The notes beneath the pieces were generated by a model. It was not told where the DNA came from and made no database searches. It saw nothing but the letters and a program-made list of their open reading frames with translations. A program made the translations under genes and the position numbers. A stretch of 38,800 bases of DNA from a virus. Below are positions 133 to 36,577 of the stretch, one piece after another; within the stretch, counting starts at the first letter, position 1; each line of letters opens with the position of its first letter. The stretch is from positions 1 through 38,800 of the IMG/VR virus record IMGVR_UViG_3300044527_000754; one strand, given 5' to 3'.

Positions 133-789
133 ATGGCGCGGTCGCATGCAGAATCGGGGCTGGTGAAGCTCTACATGGCTGCGAAGGGGATGGCCCTTCG
201 CACGGCGCAACTCCATGCCAAGAACCGGCACCCGGATTACGTGGCGTTTTTGGCGACGCAGGGAGCGAAGGCGCTCGAAGTCGCCGACCCGAGCGAAGAG
301 CAAAAACGCGCCCTGGTCGCCGTGATGGGTGGGCAAACGCCCCCCGGAGATCGGCTGGTGCATGTGGCACCACCCGCAATGGAGAAGCCACAAGACCAAT
401 GGACGCCCGAGGAATATGCCGAGTGTCAGTGCTGGGCGGGCATGGTAGCTGCCAATGCGCAGCGGCAGGTCGCACTGGATCGCGGTGATCCCATGGCGGC
501 CATCGGCTTCGTGAAAATCGCCGCCGACTCGCTCAAGTCCTACCACCTCGCCCGCCAGCGTCGAGTCCAGGCCGAGCTGGAAAGCGGACGCCTCCAGCCG
601 ATGTCGGCCTGGCAGGACGCCAAAGCCGCGCTCATGAAATTCGTCTCGCTCTTCGCCTCCTTCGAAGGCCGCATCGCCCAGCGGGCGAACCCCGACAACC
701 CCCAGCATGCCATGCGAGCGATCAGCCAGTGGCGGGAAGAGGAATTCAACCCCGCCCTCGAAAACGTCCTCGCCGAGCTGGCCTTATGA
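133..789 (+). CDS. Candidate terminase small subunit
   Basis: A 218-residue, Arg/Ala-rich, soluble, mostly helical-looking protein with no signal peptide. It is the first gene of the operon that contains the large terminase, and small subunits normally occupy this place, where they recognise the packaging site and recruit the large subunit. I do not recognise a clear Nu1-type helix-turn-helix, so the call rests on position and size. The ATG at 133 is supported by the TTTGACAC box 12 bases upstream; there is no obvious Shine-Dalgarno site. Base composition changes inside this gene: the first 350 or so bases are G-rich like the right-hand module, and the remainder is C-rich like the other late genes. 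The next gene begins 4 bases after its stop. Confidence 0.45.
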   Translation: MARSHAESGLVKLYMAAKGMALRTAQLHAKNRHPDYVAFLATQGAKALEVADPSEEQKRALVAVMGGQTPPGDRLVHVAPPAMEKPQDQWTPEEYAECQCWAGMVAANAQRQVALDRGDPMAAIGFVKIAADSLKSYHLARQRRVQAELESGRLQPMSAWQDAKAALMKFVSLFASFEGRIAQRANPDNPQHAMRAISQWREEEFNPALENVLAELAL

Positions 790-793
790 TCCC

Positions 794-1354
794 ATGACCG
801 AAAAACACGCCAACCTCGAACTCTGGAAATCCGCCCCCCTCGCGGAGATCAACCATCCGCATCCCAAAAATCCCCGCGTCATTCCAGATGCCGACAGCGA
901 GGAAGTCCGCACCCTGGATGCCAGCCTAGAGCACGACTACTTTGATCCGCTCATCTGGAACAAACGAAACCGCATGTGGGTCTCCGGTCATGTTCGCGCC
1001 TGGCGCATGACCGCCCTCGGCTTCACCCATGCCGATGTCGTCGTCGTCGATTACGATGAGGAGACGCACCTCGCCCGCATGCTGGCAGCCAATGCCCACT
1101 CCGGCAAAAACGACGAAGACAAGCTCGACGCCCTCCTCACCAGCCTTCGCACCTCCGAGATTGATCCCGTTCTCGCCATGATCGGATCGTTCAAAGACGA
1201 TTCATCACCGAAAAAATCCCGCAGTAAACCACCGCCGACATCCGTCTCCGAAGTCTTTGAAATCATCCTCGAATGCACCGGCGAAGCCCAGCAGGCCGAA
1301 CTCTTTGATCGCTTCAGAAAGGAGGGTTTGAAATGCCGCTTGCTCACATTGTAA
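794..1354 (+). CDS. ParB/Srx-like nuclease-fold protein
   Basis: A 186-residue protein with a ParB/sulfiredoxin-type N-terminal domain. The diagnostic segment is GHVRAWRMTALG from Gly65, followed by a V-rich strand and the LARMLAANAHSGKND region, which resembles the NTP-binding GHRR region of ParB proteins and the GH-R-LAA form found beside phage DNA-modifying enzymes. The N-terminal segment AEINHPHPKNPR also fits the family. ParB itself is a CTPase and DNA clamp; these short phage members have no settled role. It begins 4 bases after the candidate small terminase gene, and its end overlaps the next gene by 22 bases, so all are probably co-transcribed. The last 60 or so residues, with a Lys/Ser/Pro-rich linker, are not recognised. 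A second, longer ParB-like gene lies at 34046. Confidence 0.7.
   Translation: MTEKHANLELWKSAPLAEINHPHPKNPRVIPDADSEEVRTLDASLEHDYFDPLIWNKRNRMWVSGHVRAWRMTALGFTHADVVVVDYDEETHLARMLAANAHSGKNDEDKLDALLTSLRTSEIDPVLAMIGSFKDDSSPKKSRSKPPPTSVSEVFEIILECTGEAQQAELFDRFRKEGLKCRLLTL
1319..1326 (+). promoter_or_regulatory. Strong Shine-Dalgarno site for the ABC-GNAT gene
   Basis: AAGGAGGG ends 6 bases before the ATG at 1333. Canonical sites like this are rare among the late genes here, so the fusion protein may be translated independently and efficiently even though its start lies inside the end of the ParB-like gene. Confidence 0.7.
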
Positions 1355-2478
1355 GAGAGTCGCCCATCAGCGATTCCTTCCGCACCGCTCAGGTCATGGG
1401 CATGTTTGATGTCCCGCATCGCGGTTCCATTCGTCACGAGTGGGACGTTGAGCTGCCGCTCGAATCACACGACTGGAAAATCGGTCTCATCGTTGGCAGC
1501 AGCGGCAGCGGCAAAACCACCATCGCTCGCGAGTTGTTCCCGCATGCCTACTTTCATGAGCGCTTCGACTGGCCCGCCGGTTCATTGCTCGACGGCTTCC
1601 CCGCTGCCGCCGCTACGAAAGACATCGTCGAAGCACTCTCCAGTGTCGGACTTTCCAGCCCGCCCATGTGGATCAAGCCCTTCGCGCATCTCAGCAACGG
1701 CCAGCAGTTCCGTGCCGAGCTGGCGCGCTCCATGATGCACGATGCCGACACCATCATCTTCGACGAATTCACTTCCGTCGTCGATCGCACCGTTGCGCAG
1801 GTCTGTTCCGCCGCCGTTTCCAAACTCATCCGCAGGAGGCATCGCCCGCAACTCGTCGCGGTCTCGTGTCACTTCGACATCATCGACTGGCTCCAGCCAG
1901 ATTGGTTGTTCGACGTGAACGAGAACCGCTTTGAGTGGCGGAGTCTTCGGCGAAAGCCACCCATCACCCTCCGCATCAACGAAACCCCGCGTTCAACGTG
2001 GCAACTATTTAGGGGGCATCACTATTTGAGCGCCGATCTCCACACCGCCGCCAAATGCTACCTCGCCACCTGGCAGGATGTCCCCGTGGCCTTCGTCGCC
2101 GTCATCCTGCAACCGCACAACATCGTTTACAATTTCCGACGCGAGCATCGGGTTGTGGTGTTGCCCGACTTTCAAGGTGTCGGCATCGGCAACGCCGTCT
2201 CCGAGTTTATCGCTGCTCAATACACCACAGCTGGTTACCGCTACATCAGCGTCACCAGCCATCCCGCCATGATTCGGCATCGCCTTGCCTCGCCTCTGTG
2301 GGCCTGCACACGCGCCCCCGCGCATGGCAGCAAACCCAATTCTCGCAGCGGCTCAGTCGGTAGAACCAGCGTTCAGCGACTCACCGCCAGCTTTGAATTC
2401 AAGCCGTCAAGCGTTACCCCAGAAATCTTTCCCGGCAAAGCCATTGACCCATCTGAATCGGTGGCAAGTGCTGTTTGA
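1333..2478 (+). CDS. ABC-type ATPase fused to a GNAT acyltransferase domain
   Basis: A 381-residue two-domain protein. The N-terminal half is an intact ABC ATPase: Walker A GSSGSGKTT (55-63), signature LSNGQ (120-124), Walker B IIFDE (141-145) and the H-loop histidine in SCHFD (His180). From about residue 210 there is a GNAT-like acyltransferase domain: GHHYLSA (228-234), a central strand, then VLPDFQGVGIG (276-286), which matches the acyl-CoA pyrophosphate loop; near the C-terminus is an RLTASFEF motif. No transmembrane segments are present, so it is not a transporter. The architecture matches the group described as ABC-type ATPase fused to a predicted acetyltransferase (COG2401, from memory). 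Phage Mu Mom, which modifies adenine in DNA, also has a GNAT fold, so DNA modification is a plausible but untested role. It is followed without a gap by the ASCH gene. Confidence 0.8.
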   Translation: MPLAHIVRESPISDSFRTAQVMGMFDVPHRGSIRHEWDVELPLESHDWKIGLIVGSSGSGKTTIARELFPHAYFHERFDWPAGSLLDGFPAAAATKDIVEALSSVGLSSPPMWIKPFAHLSNGQQFRAELARSMMHDADTIIFDEFTSVVDRTVAQVCSAAVSKLIRRRHRPQLVAVSCHFDIIDWLQPDWLFDVNENRFEWRSLRRKPPITLRINETPRSTWQLFRGHHYLSADLHTAAKCYLATWQDVPVAFVAVILQPHNIVYNFRREHRVVVLPDFQGVGIGNAVSEFIAAQYTTAGYRYISVTSHPAMIRHRLASPLWACTRAPAHGSKPNSRSGSVGRTSVQRLTASFEFKPSSVTPEIFPGKAIDPSESVASAV

Positions 2479-2769
2479 ATGGAACCCCGAATCCTCACGC
2501 TCCGCCTGAAAACCATCTATTGGAATCAAATCGCCGCTGGCACCAAGCGCGAGGAATTGCGCCTAGCAAATCCACGCTACATTCGCCAGCTTCTCAGCCG
2601 CGACTACGATGTGATTCATCTCTGGCTCGGCTACCCGCCTGCCACCGAGGCAACGAAGCTGCTGCGTTTCGCTTGGCGCGGCGCTCGCCGCATTCGCCGC
2701 CAGCATGAGCACTTCGGACCGACGCCCGTTGATTTGATCGCTGTCGATCTGAGCGTCCGCATACCATGA
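2479..2769 (+). CDS. ASCH-domain protein
   Basis: A 96-residue protein matching the small phage ASCH family, a PUA-like beta-barrel associated with RNA or modified-nucleotide binding and, in YqfB, N4-acetylcytidine hydrolysis. Visible signatures are the N-terminal LTLRLKTIYWNQIAAGTKRE segment with GTKREELRL, then a GYPP turn, a WRG motif and HEHFGPTPVDLIAVDL at the end. Its start codon immediately follows the stop of the ABC-GNAT gene, and its stop overlaps the start of the large terminase by 4 bases, so the three are translationally linked. The substrate cannot be read. The neighbourhood suggests that it recognises or processes a modified base or nucleotide, but this is inference. Confidence 0.72.
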   Translation: MEPRILTLRLKTIYWNQIAAGTKREELRLANPRYIRQLLSRDYDVIHLWLGYPPATEATKLLRFAWRGARRIRRQHEHFGPTPVDLIAVDLSVRIP

Positions 2770-4817
2770 CCGCCCCGCCGCCAGACCTCACCGCCGCCGC
2801 CAGTGCGCTCAATCGTCGGCGGCTCGCCGCGTTGCTCGACAAATACGGTCGCGGCAGCGCCAGCAAGGCCGAGATCGACGAACTCTACGCCGACGCGCAG
2901 ATCGCCGCCCTGCTGCCGCCACGCGCCGTCGCTGTCACGCCCGAGGCCGCGCCCACGGCACCCGCCCCGCAGATCATCTACACGCCCTCTCGCGTCCCCT
3001 ACACCCCGCAGCAACGCCGCGCCGCCGCCGTGCAAAGCGAGGTGCTCGGCATGTTCCGCACCCAGCGGCGAAAAGCTGTTGTGCCATGGTTGGAGGAAAA
3101 CATCATCCTGCCACGCAAGATGGCCCCGAACTCCGCCGGGCCGTTTCGCACGGCCTCGCGCCCGTTTCAGCGTCCCATCTTGGAATGCTTCGACCCCGAG
3201 TCCGGCGTCAATGAGTGCGGCGTCTCCGCCGGTGTGCAGATCGCAAAGACCGCCATGCTCACCCTCGGGGCCAGCTACCGTCTCGTCAATGCCCCGCTCC
3301 CCATCCTCATCGTCGGCAGCTCCCGCGACTGGACCAAGACCGAACTCAGCGAGAAGCGCATGCAGTGCCTCATCGACGAGAACCCCATCCTCGCCGCTTG
3401 CAAACCTGCCAACCCCGACCGCTACCGCTCTATGTCGATGGATATGGCCGGAGGCATGGTCAACTTCGTCGGCGGCAATTCCCCCGGCGCACTCTCCGGC
3501 GGCTCCTACGGCATCACGCTTTGCGATGAAGCCTCGAAGCTCATCCAAAGCGAAAGCGAGCAAGCCCCCGAGGCACACCCATTCCACCTCATCGCAAAGC
3601 GCACCGACGGCTTTGGTGCGCTGGAGTTCCACTATTACAGCAGCACGCCAAACAGCCCCACGCATCCCTTTTGGCGCTACATCCTCGCCGGAGACCAAAC
3701 CCACTTCTACGTCGAGTGCCCGCACTGCCACGAGTGGTTTTATCTCGACTTCATTGGCCGCGCTGAGGATGTCGAAGACTACAACACCCACCTCGGCCTC
3801 ACCCTCCCGTCCTCGTATAAATCCATCACCTGGGACAAGACCGCCCGCGAAGCCAGCGGACAGTGGGACGAGACCCGCGTCCGTGAATCCGTCCGCTACA
3901 TCTGTCCGCGCAACGGCTGCGAAATCACCGAGCTGCACAAGCAAGCCATGGTCGAAGGCTGCACCGAAAAGCGCCACAACCCCATCGCCGCCAAAAATCG
4001 CCGAACCTTCATCCTTCCCTCATTCTACTCACCCACCAAGTCCTTCGGCACCATGGCCTGGGACTTCCTCGCCAGCCTGCACGACATCTTCGGGCTCCAG
4101 GATTACTACAACAGCCGCCTCGCTCGACCGTGGACCGAATACAACGTCAACCTCAAGATGGAAGACATCCTCCGCGCCATCGCCGACGGCAAAAACGGCC
4201 GCCCGCTCTACCGCCGAAACACCCTCCCCTTCAAGCCCCTCCGCTTACTCCTCAATGCCGATCCCGGCGAAGCCACCACCCATTGGGAACTCGTCGCCCT
4301 CGCCCACGACGGCGGAGTGTGGGTCTGCGATTGGGGCACCGTCGTCTCATCGAAAGATTTGCTCGCCACCGACTTCCTCAAAGCCCGCCACATCATCATC
4401 GACGGCACCAACGAAAAAATCTTCCCCATCCGAGGCTACCTCGACACCGGCTGGCAGCAGGACGACCAGCTCGACGTGTGCTCAGCCTCACGCGGCTTCT
4501 TCGTCCCCGTCAAAGGCTCCGACTCAAAGCATGGACAGCTTCACGAGACCCGCGTTGCCACCCGTCCGCAAATGGCCCTCCTCGTCTTCAACGACCGCGA
4601 GATCAAAAACATGCTCTACGCCAATCGGCTCATGAAACAAAACGACGGCGGCTTCCACCTCCCCACCGATGCCGACCCCGAAGTCAAGCTCGGCCACACC
4701 GGCCAAAAACGCGACGCCGACGGCGAATGGCAACGCGTCCCCCACGACCACTTCGGCGACTGCTCCAAATACACCTGCATAGACTACCAGCTCCTCCGCG
4801 CTGGTGGCATGCTTTGA
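2766..4817 (+). CDS. terL: Terminase large subunit, GpA family
   Basis: A 683-residue packaging ATPase/nuclease close in plan to lambda GpA. After a Pro/Ala-rich N-terminal linker (1-85), the ATPase carries a deviant Walker A (SAGVQIAKT, Lys161) and Walker B ITLCDE (Asp254, Glu255). A zinc-finger-like insertion has CPHC (Cys318, Cys321) and a second Cys pair (Cys380, Cys385). The C-terminal RNase H-like nuclease begins near LLNADPGE (Asp499). It pumps DNA into the prohead and cuts it at the packaging site. The start overlaps the ASCH stop as ATGA. GpA-type terminases usually act at cos or by headful cutting; which applies here cannot be decided. Only terminase-region genes with enzyme-like cargo precede it, an unusual separation from the presumed small subunit. 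Confidence 0.92.
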   Translation: MTAPPPDLTAAASALNRRRLAALLDKYGRGSASKAEIDELYADAQIAALLPPRAVAVTPEAAPTAPAPQIIYTPSRVPYTPQQRRAAAVQSEVLGMFRTQRRKAVVPWLEENIILPRKMAPNSAGPFRTASRPFQRPILECFDPESGVNECGVSAGVQIAKTAMLTLGASYRLVNAPLPILIVGSSRDWTKTELSEKRMQCLIDENPILAACKPANPDRYRSMSMDMAGGMVNFVGGNSPGALSGGSYGITLCDEASKLIQSESEQAPEAHPFHLIAKRTDGFGALEFHYYSSTPNSPTHPFWRYILAGDQTHFYVECPHCHEWFYLDFIGRAEDVEDYNTHLGLTLPSSYKSITWDKTAREASGQWDETRVRESVRYICPRNGCEITELHKQAMVEGCTEKRHNPIAAKNRRTFILPSFYSPTKSFGTMAWDFLASLHDIFGLQDYYNSRLARPWTEYNVNLKMEDILRAIADGKNGRPLYRRNTLPFKPLRLLLNADPGEATTHWELVALAHDGGVWVCDWGTVVSSKDLLATDFLKARHIIIDGTNEKIFPIRGYLDTGWQQDDQLDVCSASRGFFVPVKGSDSKHGQLHETRVATRPQMALLVFNDREIKNMLYANRLMKQNDGGFHLPTDADPEVKLGHTGQKRDADGEWQRVPHDHFGDCSKYTCIDYQLLRAGGML

Positions 4818-15474: not shown

Positions 15475-15935
15475 GCAGCATCACCGATCAACAACGCGCT
15501 CTCGTCAGCATGAGCGACGCAGAAATCAACGAACTCCTCCGCGAAGGCTGGCCCGCTGAAATCGTTTTCTCGCTCAAAGATCGCGGCTTCCGTCCCTGCG
15601 AGACCGATCACATTGCCGCCCGCTACGACGGCGCAGACCCAAAAAAAACACGCGGCTTCATCCGCCAAACCGCCCTCCCACATCTCCACCTCACGCTAGA
15701 GCGTCAGGGCAGCATGCGCGAGATACTCGAACGCATCGACACCGCTCTTTTCGAGGCCGGTCTCCGCGTCGGCCACGAAGGCCTCGCGGGCATGTTCATG
15801 CGCTTCGTTGAAAGCTGCAAAACCTGGCGTCTCTCCCCCGCTCCCGCCGCCCTGGAAACCAACCTGAGCAATCTGACCGCCCGCCTCGCGAAACTTGAGG
15901 CCGCACACAAGACGAACGACAAAATCCACCCATGA
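15471..15935 (+). CDS. Unknown late helical protein
   Basis: A 154-residue helical protein, starting in an ATGA overlap. Segments such as MSDAEINELLREGWPAEIVF and LTLERQGSMREILERIDTAL suggest amphipathic helices, with a C-terminal coiled-coil-like tail (LETNLSNLTARLAKLEAA). It may be an assembly factor. The stop overlaps the methylase start. Confidence 0.5.
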   Translation: MSSITDQQRALVSMSDAEINELLREGWPAEIVFSLKDRGFRPCETDHIAARYDGADPKKTRGFIRQTALPHLHLTLERQGSMREILERIDTALFEAGLRVGHEGLAGMFMRFVESCKTWRLSPAPAALETNLSNLTARLAKLEAAHKTNDKIHP

Positions 15936-16456
15936 CTGCCCGCCCTGACGCTCCGAATCCACCTGAAACTGCCGCCGGGCAGTCATTGGGTGCGATGCCT
16001 TGTTCGCTTTCTTCGAGGGATCACGCCTGCTTCAAGGCCGCTCACGTCGAATGGGGAACGCCGCCGGATCTCTACGCCGCTCTCGATGCAGAGTTCGGAT
16101 TCACGCTCGACCCGTGCAAGCTTGGGCAAGTGTGGGACGGGACGACAATCCGATGGGATGGTCAGAGAGTCTATTGCAACCCGCCGTATGGCCGGACGAT
16201 TGGCGACTGGCTGGCCAAAGGCCCCGAGGCGGATGTCGCCGTCTTCCTGCTACCAGCAAGGACAGACACAAGATGGTTCCACGAACACGCGCTAAAGGCC
16301 GATGAAATCCGATTCTTCAAGGGCCGCCTGCGCTTCAACGAAAACCACGTCTCACCAGCGGACTACACGAAACGATTCAAGGACATCCAAGCCGCGCCGT
16401 TCCCCTCGATGCTGGTGATTTTCAGTAAAGCGAACCAAGAGCTCACCGACAAGTGA
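15932..16456 (+). CDS. Phage Dam-like DNA N6-adenine methyltransferase
   Basis: A 174-residue enzyme of the phage Dam family (the type represented by Pfam DNA_N6-adenine methyltransferase). The start of the fold is visible at VEWGTPPDLYAALDAEFGF, followed by TLDPC, and the catalytic NPPY lies at residues 83-86 in YCNPPYGR. It methylates adenine in DNA with S-adenosylmethionine, probably as restriction protection. No partner endonuclease or specificity subunit is near, so it is an orphan. It sits inside the tail module, an odd place, and may have been inserted there; the codons resemble neighbours only in part. Together with the cassette at 794-2769 it suggests that DNA modification matters to this phage. 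Confidence 0.85.
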   Translation: MTARPDAPNPPETAAGQSLGAMPCSLSSRDHACFKAAHVEWGTPPDLYAALDAEFGFTLDPCKLGQVWDGTTIRWDGQRVYCNPPYGRTIGDWLAKGPEADVAVFLLPARTDTRWFHEHALKADEIRFFKGRLRFNENHVSPADYTKRFKDIQAAPFPSMLVIFSKANQELTDK

Positions 16457-34045: not shown

Positions 34046-35425
34046 ATGACTGAAACAAAAAACGAAGTGGTGGTGCGCTCTTTGGAGCGTGTGAAATTTT
34101 GGGAATGGAACCCACGCGGCTCGAATTATCGTGGCATGCCGGAGCTGGTGTCGTCGCTGGCCCGTGAGGGTCTGCAAGACGCGATCCATGTGTGGGAGCG
34201 GGTGGATGGTGACTATCTGCTCAAAGGGCACCGCCGCTTTGAGGCGATGAGCACGCTGGGCTGGACGGAGTGTGCGCAGGTGGTGCACCACTACGAGGAC
34301 GAGGCGGCGGCGTATCGTTTCCTGCTGGAAGATCACGGGCACAATGATCCGCTGGATGCGGAAGAGAAGATCGTAGCGGTGGAGAACGGTGTGAAGCTGG
34401 GCATGCGAACGGACGAACTGGCTCCGAGTCTGGGTGTGTCTGCCGAGCGTGCGCAGCTATGGTTCGAACTGGGTGAGCAACTGCCGCAGGCGGCGAGAGC
34501 GGCGCTGAGCGATGGGAGGCTGAGCATGAACACGGCAGAGCTGCTGCTGGAGGTGCTGGACGCGAAGGACCGACGTGCAGCGACGCAGATGATCCTCAAG
34601 GATCTGGAGACCGGGGAGCCGATGGCGCATGGACAGGCAAAGGCCTACATCCAGGCGCATTATGTGTTGCCAGAGAAGCGGCGGAAGGAGTGGCTGGCGC
34701 GTGAGATCGTCCTGCGCAAGAAATACAAAGTGGCGAAGGGTTATCACTTCGTGGAGTGGGCGGGGCGACGTGAATTTGCGATGGGTGAAAGCGGGCAACC
34801 GCAGCCGGAGTTTGAGTTTGGCGATGTGATGATGCCGAAGGATCGCGAAGGCCGCACCTGGGAACAGGTGGCACTGGAGATCGGGGTGCCGGTGTATGTG
34901 GTGGCGGCTCCGCTGCATGCGGAGGGGCATGTGCGGCTGGTGAACTCGTCCATGATGCGCGATGCGCTGAGTGTGAAGCCGCCGACCGAGGTGAGCGATG
35001 ACGACGCCGATAACGAGCAGGAGACCACGATGGAGGTGCTGTCGCCGCCGGTGAGCACGATGCCGATCAAGACTGATGCCATGGAGGAGGTGGAGCAACT
35101 GCGGCAATGGCTGCGCACCAACCTGGGCGCAATTTATGACGAGCTGCTGGAGAACCCAACGCTGGTGATGACGAGTGCGCCGTGGGAGCCGCTGCGCGAT
35201 TTCCTGGCGCATCTGACGACGGATGTGGATGCCGGAGCACTGGAAGCCTGGCGTGGTATCACCGACCGCGAGGCGGCGATGGAATGGATGCGCGGCGACA
35301 AGAAGCAACGCGCCCCGATGCGCTGCGCTCTGATGCTGCTGCTGTGCGCGGAGAGCGACTCGAGCGACGAGCCGATGAAGGTGATCAGCGAGGTGGCGAA
35401 GGCGATCGGGGTGGGGCCGATTTGA
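34046..35425 (+). CDS. ParB-like protein of the replication module
   Basis: A 459-residue ParB/Spo0J-type protein. The N-terminal domain includes WEWNPRGSNYRGMPELVSSL, then GHRRFEAMSTLGW (residues 61-73). The helix-turn-helix domain follows (LGVSAERAQLWFELGEQLP and later helices up to about 210). The long C-terminal half (about 230-459) is acidic and not recognised. ParB proteins bind parS and form CTP-dependent clamps for segregation; here it could aid plasmid-like maintenance or replication. No ParA-type ATPase is visible in the window, so a complete partition system is not shown. It is longer than typical ParB (about 280-330 residues). Confidence 0.82.
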   Translation: MTETKNEVVVRSLERVKFWEWNPRGSNYRGMPELVSSLAREGLQDAIHVWERVDGDYLLKGHRRFEAMSTLGWTECAQVVHHYEDEAAAYRFLLEDHGHNDPLDAEEKIVAVENGVKLGMRTDELAPSLGVSAERAQLWFELGEQLPQAARAALSDGRLSMNTAELLLEVLDAKDRRAATQMILKDLETGEPMAHGQAKAYIQAHYVLPEKRRKEWLAREIVLRKKYKVAKGYHFVEWAGRREFAMGESGQPQPEFEFGDVMMPKDREGRTWEQVALEIGVPVYVVAAPLHAEGHVRLVNSSMMRDALSVKPPTEVSDDDADNEQETTMEVLSPPVSTMPIKTDAMEEVEQLRQWLRTNLGAIYDELLENPTLVMTSAPWEPLRDFLAHLTTDVDAGALEAWRGITDREAAMEWMRGDKKQRAPMRCALMLLLCAESDSSDEPMKVISEVAKAIGVGPI

Positions 35426-35485: not shown

Positions 35486-36577
35486 ATGACTGGAGGGGAC
35501 ATTATCGGCAGGGCGCGGAAGTATGTGGCGGCTTGTCCGCCTGCCATCGCTGGCAGCGGTGGGCATGGGACGACGTTTGGCGTGGCGTGTGCGCTGGTGC
35601 ATGGCTTCGCACTCAATGAGGTGGATGCGATGATGCTGATGCAGGAATACAACCAAGCCTGCGCACCGCACTGGACGGAGCGTGACTTACTGCACAAAAT
35701 CCAATCGGCGGCGCGGGCCTCGCACTCGAAGCCGCGTGGCTGGATGGTGGATGGATCAAGCGACGAGAATGCGCCGGTGTATGTGCCAGCGAAGAAGAAG
35801 GAGAAACTGCTGTATGATGCGGAGATCCTGAAAAAGGTGCAGTGCGCGGACTGGACGTGTGATCATGCGTGGCTGCGGGCGAGATCAAGCGTGGACCCGT
35901 GGACGGTGGACACGGGCGATTTCATCGACGCGATCTACACGCCACAGGAGCTGGTGATGTGCTTCACCTCGATGCGCAGCATGGGTGACTACATGCGCTA
36001 CAAGGGCGCGTGGTTCGCGCTGGGTAAAGACCCGCAAGTGAAGGCGCAGCGCGTGAAGGACGGGCCACGTGGCAGCCGTGAGGGGTGCGTGATGATGATT
36101 CAGCCGGTGGATGGGAAGTGGCATGCGGTGCAAGGGACGACGCCACCGCGACTGAGCCGTCGGACGATCCAGAGTGTGGCGGCGTTTCGATTCATGCTGT
36201 GGGAGTCGGACGAAGCGCCGGAGGCGATGTGGCTGAATGCCATCGCGCAAGTGCGTCTGCCGATTGTAGCGATCACGAGCAGCGCAGGCCGCAGTCTGCA
36301 TGCGCTGGTGAGGGTGGATGCGCGTGACTATGATGAGTGGAGTGCGATGCGCACGGCGGCCCGTGATGTGATGACGATGCTAGGCTTCGACCCTCAAAGC
36401 CTCAGTAACCCAACGGCGGCGATGCGGATGCCGAACACGATGCGCGAGGGCAAGATGAAGGAGGGGCGATTTGTGCCGTTTGAGCACGGGGCGAAAAAGC
36501 AGCGGCTGCTGTATTTTAACCCCAGCGCGACGATCAACGGTGGCTGCATCGGTGAGGAGGCCGTCAGAGCATGGTGA
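35486..36577 (+). CDS. Primase-like protein with PriCT-type and divergent AEP-type segments
   Basis: A 363-residue protein. Residues 5-85 (IIGRARKYVAACPPAIAGSG, GHGTTFGVACALVHGFAL and later ERDLLHKIQSAARAS) resemble the PriCT helical domain that follows primase-polymerase domains in phages and plasmids. The C-terminal half has SSAGRSLHALVRVDARDYDEW and LSNPTAAMRMPNT, which recall the conserved AEP primase-polymerase motifs, but the order is unusual and acidic catalytic residues are not obvious. The middle is unrecognised. It overlaps the helicase gene by 7 bases, so the two probably act as the priming and unwinding pair. Confidence 0.65.
   Translation: MTGGDIIGRARKYVAACPPAIAGSGGHGTTFGVACALVHGFALNEVDAMMLMQEYNQACAPHWTERDLLHKIQSAARASHSKPRGWMVDGSSDENAPVYVPAKKKEKLLYDAEILKKVQCADWTCDHAWLRARSSVDPWTVDTGDFIDAIYTPQELVMCFTSMRSMGDYMRYKGAWFALGKDPQVKAQRVKDGPRGSREGCVMMIQPVDGKWHAVQGTTPPRLSRRTIQSVAAFRFMLWESDEAPEAMWLNAIAQVRLPIVAITSSAGRSLHALVRVDARDYDEWSAMRTAARDVMTMLGFDPQSLSNPTAAMRMPNTMREGKMKEGRFVPFEHGAKKQRLLYFNPSATINGGCIGEEAVRAW

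Follow-up and report, generated by a model that had tools for sequence, protein, structure and literature searches.

A conserved ParB-tail and ABC-GNAT gene pair of phages, predicted to act in DNA acylation

The ParB-like protein and the ABC ATPase-GNAT fusion encoded ahead of the terminase large subunit gene in the phage sequence analyzed here probably form one DNA-modifying complex, which would acylate a base of the phage DNA at a late stage and so serve to evade restriction. Found in well over 100 loci, the conserved pairing of these two proteins goes far beyond chance. Cassettes of this kind have already been predicted in print: a statement by Aravind and colleagues (PMC7824862), citing Iyer et al. 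2013, has an ABC-ATPase-coupled GNAT predicted to acylate a DNA base, so the DNA acylation proposed in a preliminary description of this sequence is essentially that published prediction. What we add is the partnership with a ParB-borne tail and its fusions, the locations in the terminase region and in Mu-like phages, and the near-obligate, mutually exclusive partner enzymes, some of which may already be in Iyer et al. 2013.

The operon and its setting

The window, meaning the whole stretch analyzed, is positions 1-38,800 of the 38.8-kb IMG/VR virus record IMGVR_UViG_3300044527_000754. It encodes portal, protease, major head, and tape-measure genes together with an integrase, and is thus from a temperate tailed phage. 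The features of concern are as follows.

133-789, plus strand: gene without a recognizable family, the first ORF of the operon, 218 aa
794-1354, plus strand: ParB-like protein, with the ParB fold at about residues 11-124 and a C-terminal tail module (phrog_620, 1.3e-15)
1241-1351, plus strand: the tail module of about 36 aa, VFEIILECTGEAQQAELFDRFRKEGLKCRLLTL, common to the upstream partners of nearly all ABC-GNAT loci (tail HMM, 2e-16)
1321-1325, plus strand: Shine-Dalgarno-like GGAGG, 7 nt 5' of the ABC-GNAT start, by sequence reading
1333-1354, plus strand: 22-nt overlap in which the ParB tail codons K-C-R-L-L-T-L hold the ABC-GNAT ATG in another frame; the exact -22 spacing recurs elsewhere
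1333-2478, plus strand: ABC ATPase fused to a GNAT domain (phrog_11143, 9e-106)
1333-1947, plus strand: ABC ATPase half, residues 1-205 (PF00005, 1.8e-8)
1948-2412, plus strand: GNAT half, residues about 206-360, with the acyl-CoA loop QGVGIG (PF00583, 1.9e-5)
2479-2769, plus strand: small ASCH-like (PUA-like) protein of phrog_625 type (1.1e-16)
2766-4817, plus strand: terL, terminase large subunit of GpA type (PF05876, 9.9e-34; PF20454, 2e-8; phrog_15, 4.8e-59)

A 4-nt gap separates the gene at 133-789 from the ParB-like gene, which overlaps ABC-GNAT by 22 nt; the ASCH-like gene follows with a 0-nt gap and overlaps terL by 4 nt. The window ORFs thereby bear out the three-gene cassette at 794-2769 that had been described, with its spacings. 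Since ABC-GNAT has the GGAGG of its own, coupling to translation of the ParB-like gene is plausible but not necessary. The product of 133-789 had been put forward as a candidate terminase small subunit, a label that we regard as an unsupported guess because this protein has no Pfam, PHROGs, or NCBIfam match and no similarity to the terS of a relative. In keeping with the earlier remark that the ABC half has no membrane partner, no ABC permease was found among the window genes searched.

Elsewhere in the window, a 174-aa DNA methyltransferase (15932-16456; phrog_111, 2.6e-32) lies amid the structural genes, so that the phage may have two kinds of DNA modification, this one and the one predicted for the cassette. 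A second ParB-like protein, of 459 aa (34046-35425; phrog_4715, 1.6e-9), is encoded just upstream of a primase-like gene (35486-36577) and is by position unrelated to the cassette.

The ABC-GNAT fusion

The match of the fusion to phrog_11143 is full length, with residues 5-356 aligned to positions 2-348 of the 357 in the profile. Its ABC half has the Walker A motif at 51-62, the signature LSNGQ at 120-124, Walker B with the catalytic Glu (D144 and E145), the D-loop SVVD, and the H-loop H180, while the GNAT half has the acyl-CoA loop Q281-G-V-G-I-G286. These ABC motifs and the loop are nearly invariant among 29 aligned relatives, which upholds the earlier reading of a complete ABC ATPase joined to a GNAT that has an acyl-donor site. 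Further residues of the GNAT that are invariant or nearly so are F226, H230, Y231, R273, P278, G282, G284, and W323. The acyl-CoA loop alone does not establish DNA as the acceptor.

The AlphaFold model of the full fusion has a mean pLDDT of 81.7, and the GNAT half modeled separately has 91.0. The top 50 matches in a PDB fold search with the whole fusion are all ABC-transporter ATPases, and a sequence search of the PDB with the GNAT profile has no match at E <= 0.001. Among viral folds, the best matches are from the family itself, namely the Leptospira LE4 protein and an Enterococcus 9184 protein annotated as a DNA polymerase, followed by assorted GNATs. COG2401 was looked for and not found.

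The preliminary description had likened this GNAT to Mom of phage Mu (PF25680; PDB ID: 8bv8), which is also a GNAT-superfamily phage enzyme (PMC7824862) and shares with the window GNAT an H-Y motif early in the fold. Kinship with Mom was not borne out in sequence or in the viral fold search: the window protein has no PF25680 match at E <= 1 whereas Mu Mom itself scores 2.4e-75, hhalign against Mu Mom gives a probability of 0.1% with E = 0.42, and the 50 best viral fold matches of the GNAT model do not include Mom. Mom also has no ABC domain and no ParB partner, unlike the system in the window. ABC-GNAT may still work like Mom, even though the test of family membership failed.

Another ATPase and GNAT in one chain is TmcA/NAT10, where TmcA acetylates N4 of tRNA cytidine. 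That resemblance in logic allows a reading in which ABC-GNAT acylates RNA or a free nucleotide, as TmcA does, with the ASCH-like protein as a reader on the RNA side. ASCH proteins are PUA-like, and the Escherichia coli member YqfB is an amidohydrolase that acts on N4-acylcytosines (PMC6972931), both of which would suit an RNA or nucleotide target. We nevertheless consider this unlikely: the ATPase of TmcA is RecD-like and not of ABC type, no TmcA Pfam domain (RecD-like helicase, GNAT_acetyltr_2, or tRNA-binding) matches the window protein at E <= 1, the ParB domain elsewhere occurs fused to DNA methyltransferases, and a Mu-like phage holds these genes at the place of mom in Mu.

Spread of the family

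ABC-GNAT fusions make up a widespread phage family. The window protein matches 76 phage records by tblastn, there are 319 matching stretches in the genome collection, and a profile-guided scan of viral contigs gave at least 591 matches. Cultured carriers include Pseudomonas phage Komp_PAO1_1, Gordonia/Rhodococcus phage Jace, Leptospira phage LE4, and Lactococcus P335. Family members are publicly annotated as ABC transporters (iron-siderophore, hemin, or generic) and once as a DNA polymerase. Two "cellular" copies from Nonomuraea that we checked, L079 and L098, look like prophages, since both loci have phage-type terminase genes and L098 also has an integrase; we therefore set aside a cellular origin for them.

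ABC and GNAT are two separate ORFs in some phages of Firmicutes, and SSU5-like phage-plasmids have a split triad of ParB, ABC, and GNAT-like genes. A triad of this kind, with the ParB of phrog_930 and the GNAT-like protein of phrog_886, lies at 2306-4523 of L054, from Escherichia phage PhiR41_1. The predicted ABC ATPase-GNAT system of Tenacibaculum phage pT24 has the same domain pair and the same proposed function and matches the window protein; there ABC and GNAT are annotated as two ORFs, whereas the window has them in one chain with a ParB-tail partner and an ASCH-like gene. The literature searched reports no modified nucleoside from any carrier, a point against acylation of DNA, and the paper on the carriers LE3 and LE4 has no restriction or nucleoside data.

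Among plasmids, the ABC-GNAT query has matches in 876 records, which in nearly all cases cover part of the query only. The conjugative IncP plasmid pKV29 of Delftia has ABC-GNAT with a formyltransferase (L052, 6022-7565) a few kb from the trb genes, a placement that resembles how an anti-restriction gene might be carried.

The ParB-like partner and its tail

The ParB-like protein of the window matches phrog_498 (3.1e-13) in addition to phrog_620, and has no PF02195 match. It keeps an NTP box of the GHxR type, G65-H-V-R68, in which G65, H66, and R68 are conserved; NTP binding within the ParB/Srx fold is diverse (PMC12704722). Its tail has the motif V-x-V-x-C-x-x-E-x-x-Q...G-x-x-C-R.

How regularly this partner accompanies ABC-GNAT was counted in two sets of loci, one of 163 dereplicated at 90% identity and an enlarged one of 180 at 80% identity. 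A tail-bearing ORF is directly upstream of ABC-GNAT in 131 of the 163 and overlaps it by exactly 22 nt in 65; in the remaining loci with upstream sequence, the tail is mostly within about 1-2 kb. An upstream ParB-like gene or the tail alone is found in 157 of the 180, a count that includes short tail ORFs, some of them cut by contig ends. Linkage is therefore conserved in related phages. Three loci (L084, L112, and L180) even have ParB, tail, ABC, and GNAT in one ORF, the fusion in L112 being confirmed by family search, and some members (L038, L042, and L047) have ABC-GNAT without any ParB partner or tail, which counts against the reading that we prefer.

Mu-like phages have lost the ParB domain and keep the tail as a free-standing short ORF. 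The tail is therefore probably what contacts ABC-GNAT, with the ParB domain as a probably optional part that binds DNA or nucleotides. These small ORFs before ABC-GNAT had been candidates for homologs of the Com zinc finger and turned out to be the tails instead.

The phage relatives of the window ParB found by tblastn are mostly ParB-methyltransferase fusions (phrog_498), in which the same ParB-fold domain is borne by a DNA-modifying enzyme with another catalytic partner. One of them, in phiFL3A, occupies the same slot ahead of terS and terL. The tail of the ABC-GNAT type was not found in two ParB-methyltransferases examined. ParBc proteins likewise accompany CmoX, a proven phage DNA carboxymethyltransferase and hypermodifier (PMC12783734), although there too the catalytic partner differs from ABC-GNAT. 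The fusions to DNA methyltransferases and the association with CmoX both favor DNA as the substrate for acylation.

Position in the genome

The ParB/ABC-GNAT pair is usually located ahead of terS and terL, and the terminases are of unrelated types. Among 93 large downstream ORFs, 40 match Terminase_6N, 22 Terminase_3, 7 GpA, and 2 TerL_ATPase; since the families can overlap, with one protein matching both 6N and 3, the true number of terL genes is at least 40 and at most 71. With an iterated HMM that may be over-inclusive, terL is found in 80 of the 116 loci that have 3 kb of downstream sequence. The commonest family for the first downstream gene is the small terminase subunit. Co-occurrence beside GpA-type terminases, as had been suggested from the window, is thus correct as to the terminase region and rejected as to the type, the adjoining terminases being of types 6, 3, and GpA.

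This slot can also be a general site for accessory genes, which counts against the explanation that we prefer. One could imagine a moron, tolerated ahead of the terminase genes, that encodes a GNAT-based toxin or serves in superinfection exclusion; GNAT toxins do exist, and the slot does host other accessory genes such as ParB-methyltransferases. No antitoxin-type partner was seen, however, and the ParB fusions and overlaps, the coupling to an ABC domain, and the metabolic partner enzymes do not fit such a module, which we find very improbable.

Several members are far from terminase genes, in Mu-like and T4-like phages and on a plasmid. In the Mu-like Porphyromonas phage008a, the last two genes are ABC-GNAT and a formyltransferase, just as com-mom comes last in Mu, with mom at the end. 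The same pair follows a tail-fibre assembly gene in Komp_PAO1_1, whose record is opened at a different point. By tblastn, no mom gene is present in phage008a, Komp_PAO1_1, or the window. That ABC-GNAT in a Mu-like phage has the near-terminal slot that mom has in Mu again favors DNA acylation.

These locations also bear on the idea that the GNAT acylates a protein, such as host RNA polymerase, a host nuclease, or a terminase or capsid component, with the ABC domain powering recognition, for packaging control or host takeover. Host proteins are the targets of some phage GNATs, for example Rac (PMC7824862), and the close linkage with terminase genes would suit a packaging target. It is hard, though, to reconcile with adjoining terminases that are mutually unrelated, with members that lie far from any terminase gene, or with formyltransferase and decarboxylase partners, which would not be expected for protein acetylation, and we hold this idea to be quite doubtful.

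Partner enzymes downstream of ABC-GNAT

In some loci, the gene 3' of ABC-GNAT encodes a formyltransferase (phrog_9240, PF00551) whose nearest solved relatives are the hydrolase domains of 10-formyltetrahydrofolate dehydrogenase. In others, it encodes a PanD-type decarboxylase, which in Jace matches PF02261 at 2e-33 and keeps the Gly-Ser of self-cleavage. Within the set of 163 loci, 4 have the PanD-type gene, six others have the formyltransferase, and the window has neither, as is the case for the cultured carriers LE4 and P335. In converse scans starting from these enzymes, 77 of 80 formyltransferase loci (L239-L318) and 22 of 23 PanD-type loci (scan L217-L238) had ABC-GNAT, counts that are not dereplicated and come from seed proteins themselves taken from ABC-GNAT loci; no locus in these scans has both. 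Two of the 3 formyltransferase exceptions are cut off by a contig end upstream of the gene. On a FastTree of 180 ABC-GNATs, the formyltransferase requires 2 changes, against a shuffled mean of 37, and PanD requires 5, against 13. That the two enzymes are near-obligate and mutually exclusive partners suggests the transfer of a small-molecule group.

The sole PanD-type locus without a detectable ABC-GNAT nearby is L238, with the gene at 4001-4357 and a 392-aa ORF at 1626-2804. Two annotations can also be amended: the tRNA-methyltransferase of Gordonia phage Sisko (L037, 1814-2464) is a formyltransferase (PF00551, 4.5e-10), and so is a hypothetical protein of NHagos (L049, 1826-2473).

The GNAT-like protein PanZ regulates PanD, and from this known pairing one may ask if the GNAT fold of the fusion is a CoA-sensing regulatory subunit, with the activity being that of the partner enzyme. 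PanD-type enzymes of this subfamily do almost always adjoin ABC-GNAT, as in the 22 of 23 loci above. With so few of the 163 loci having a PanD-type gene, six others having the formyltransferase, and the window having neither, we give a regulatory GNAT very little credence.

The ASCH-like protein

The small protein between ABC-GNAT and terL has no match to the Pfam ASCH family (PF04266). It is placed by its phrog_625 match, some relatives being annotated as ASCH domain-containing, and its PDB profile matches are weak (E = 0.16-0.19); the G-K..E-R motif is present. ASCH genes are near ABC-GNAT in a minority of loci. Their density within 1.3 kb of ABC-GNAT is about six times that elsewhere, 0.041 versus 0.007 per kb, as computed from 16 versus 7 matches in the same loci with ASCH HMMs built from the near neighbors. 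On the 180-member FastTree, the ASCH trait requires 15 changes, against a shuffled mean of 19 and a lowest value of also 15 in 200 shuffles, so it is scattered over the tree with little clustering. The ASCH genes often overlap the 3' end of ABC-GNAT from the opposite strand, and the same-strand, abutting arrangement was seen for the window and its identical contig alone. Proteins of phrog_625 type are common in other phages, with 210 records. The ASCH-like protein is an optional neighbor of ABC-GNAT.

The active site of YqfB consists of Lys21, Thr24, Arg26, and Glu74. In a motif-only alignment of K23-R-E-E26-L-R28 with the YqfB pattern K21..T24.R26, the window protein keeps the Lys and the Arg, and has Glu26 where YqfB has its Thr nucleophile. 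By this motif reading, it is rejected as an N4-acylcytosine amidohydrolase of the YqfB type, and reversal of the modification by that chemistry, as had been envisaged, is unlikely; the substitution makes a reader more likely than an eraser.

Proposed function

In the mechanism that we propose for a DNA-modifying complex, the ParB domain and tail would recruit the complex to DNA and anchor it to the ABC domain, which, driven by ATP, would expose or scan bases or move the complex along. The GNAT would then transfer an acyl group from acyl-CoA to a base, most simply to the exocyclic N6 amine of adenine or N4 amine of cytosine. With the genes expressed from the terminase region, DNA would be modified once replicated but not yet packaged, and the progeny genomes would bear the mark and withstand restriction in a new host. 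The ASCH-like protein would have an accessory role, as a reader or guide for the modified base more probably than as an eraser, and for the window cassette the simplest expectation would be a plain acyl group from the host acyl-CoA pool. The packaging-linked acylation of the preliminary description is thus retained in part: the published prediction, the ParB partner, the pre-terminase slot, and the acyl-CoA loop all fit it, and what has been dropped is the kinship with Mom, the linkage to GpA, and reversal by ASCH. The loading role suggested there for the ParB-like protein is at most tentative, one clade having kept the ParB tail alone.

The formyltransferase, a relative of enzymes that pass formyl from 10-formyl-THF on to other carriers, and the PanD-type decarboxylase could be suppliers of the donor or tailoring steps after transfer. 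A broader idea, possible though short of likely, is that ParB/ABC-GNAT is the DNA counterpart of TmcA, an ATP-driven system that adds an acyl group not yet described to an exocyclic amine of a phage DNA base, its chemistry being set by third genes that can replace one another. The formyltransferase clade would then supply a formyl group by way of the 10-formyl-THF enzyme, the PanD-type clade would supply an amino-acid-derived group by way of the decarboxylase, and ASCH-bearing members such as the one in the window would use plain host acyl-CoA.

Hypermodification of phage DNA yields both new bases and chemistry for evading restriction, and little has been explored of acylated DNA bases other than the product of Mom. 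The ABC-GNAT system is common, its cultured members make the 2013 prediction testable with ordinary LC-MS, and the near-obligate formyltransferase and PanD-type partners indicate which DNA products to seek.
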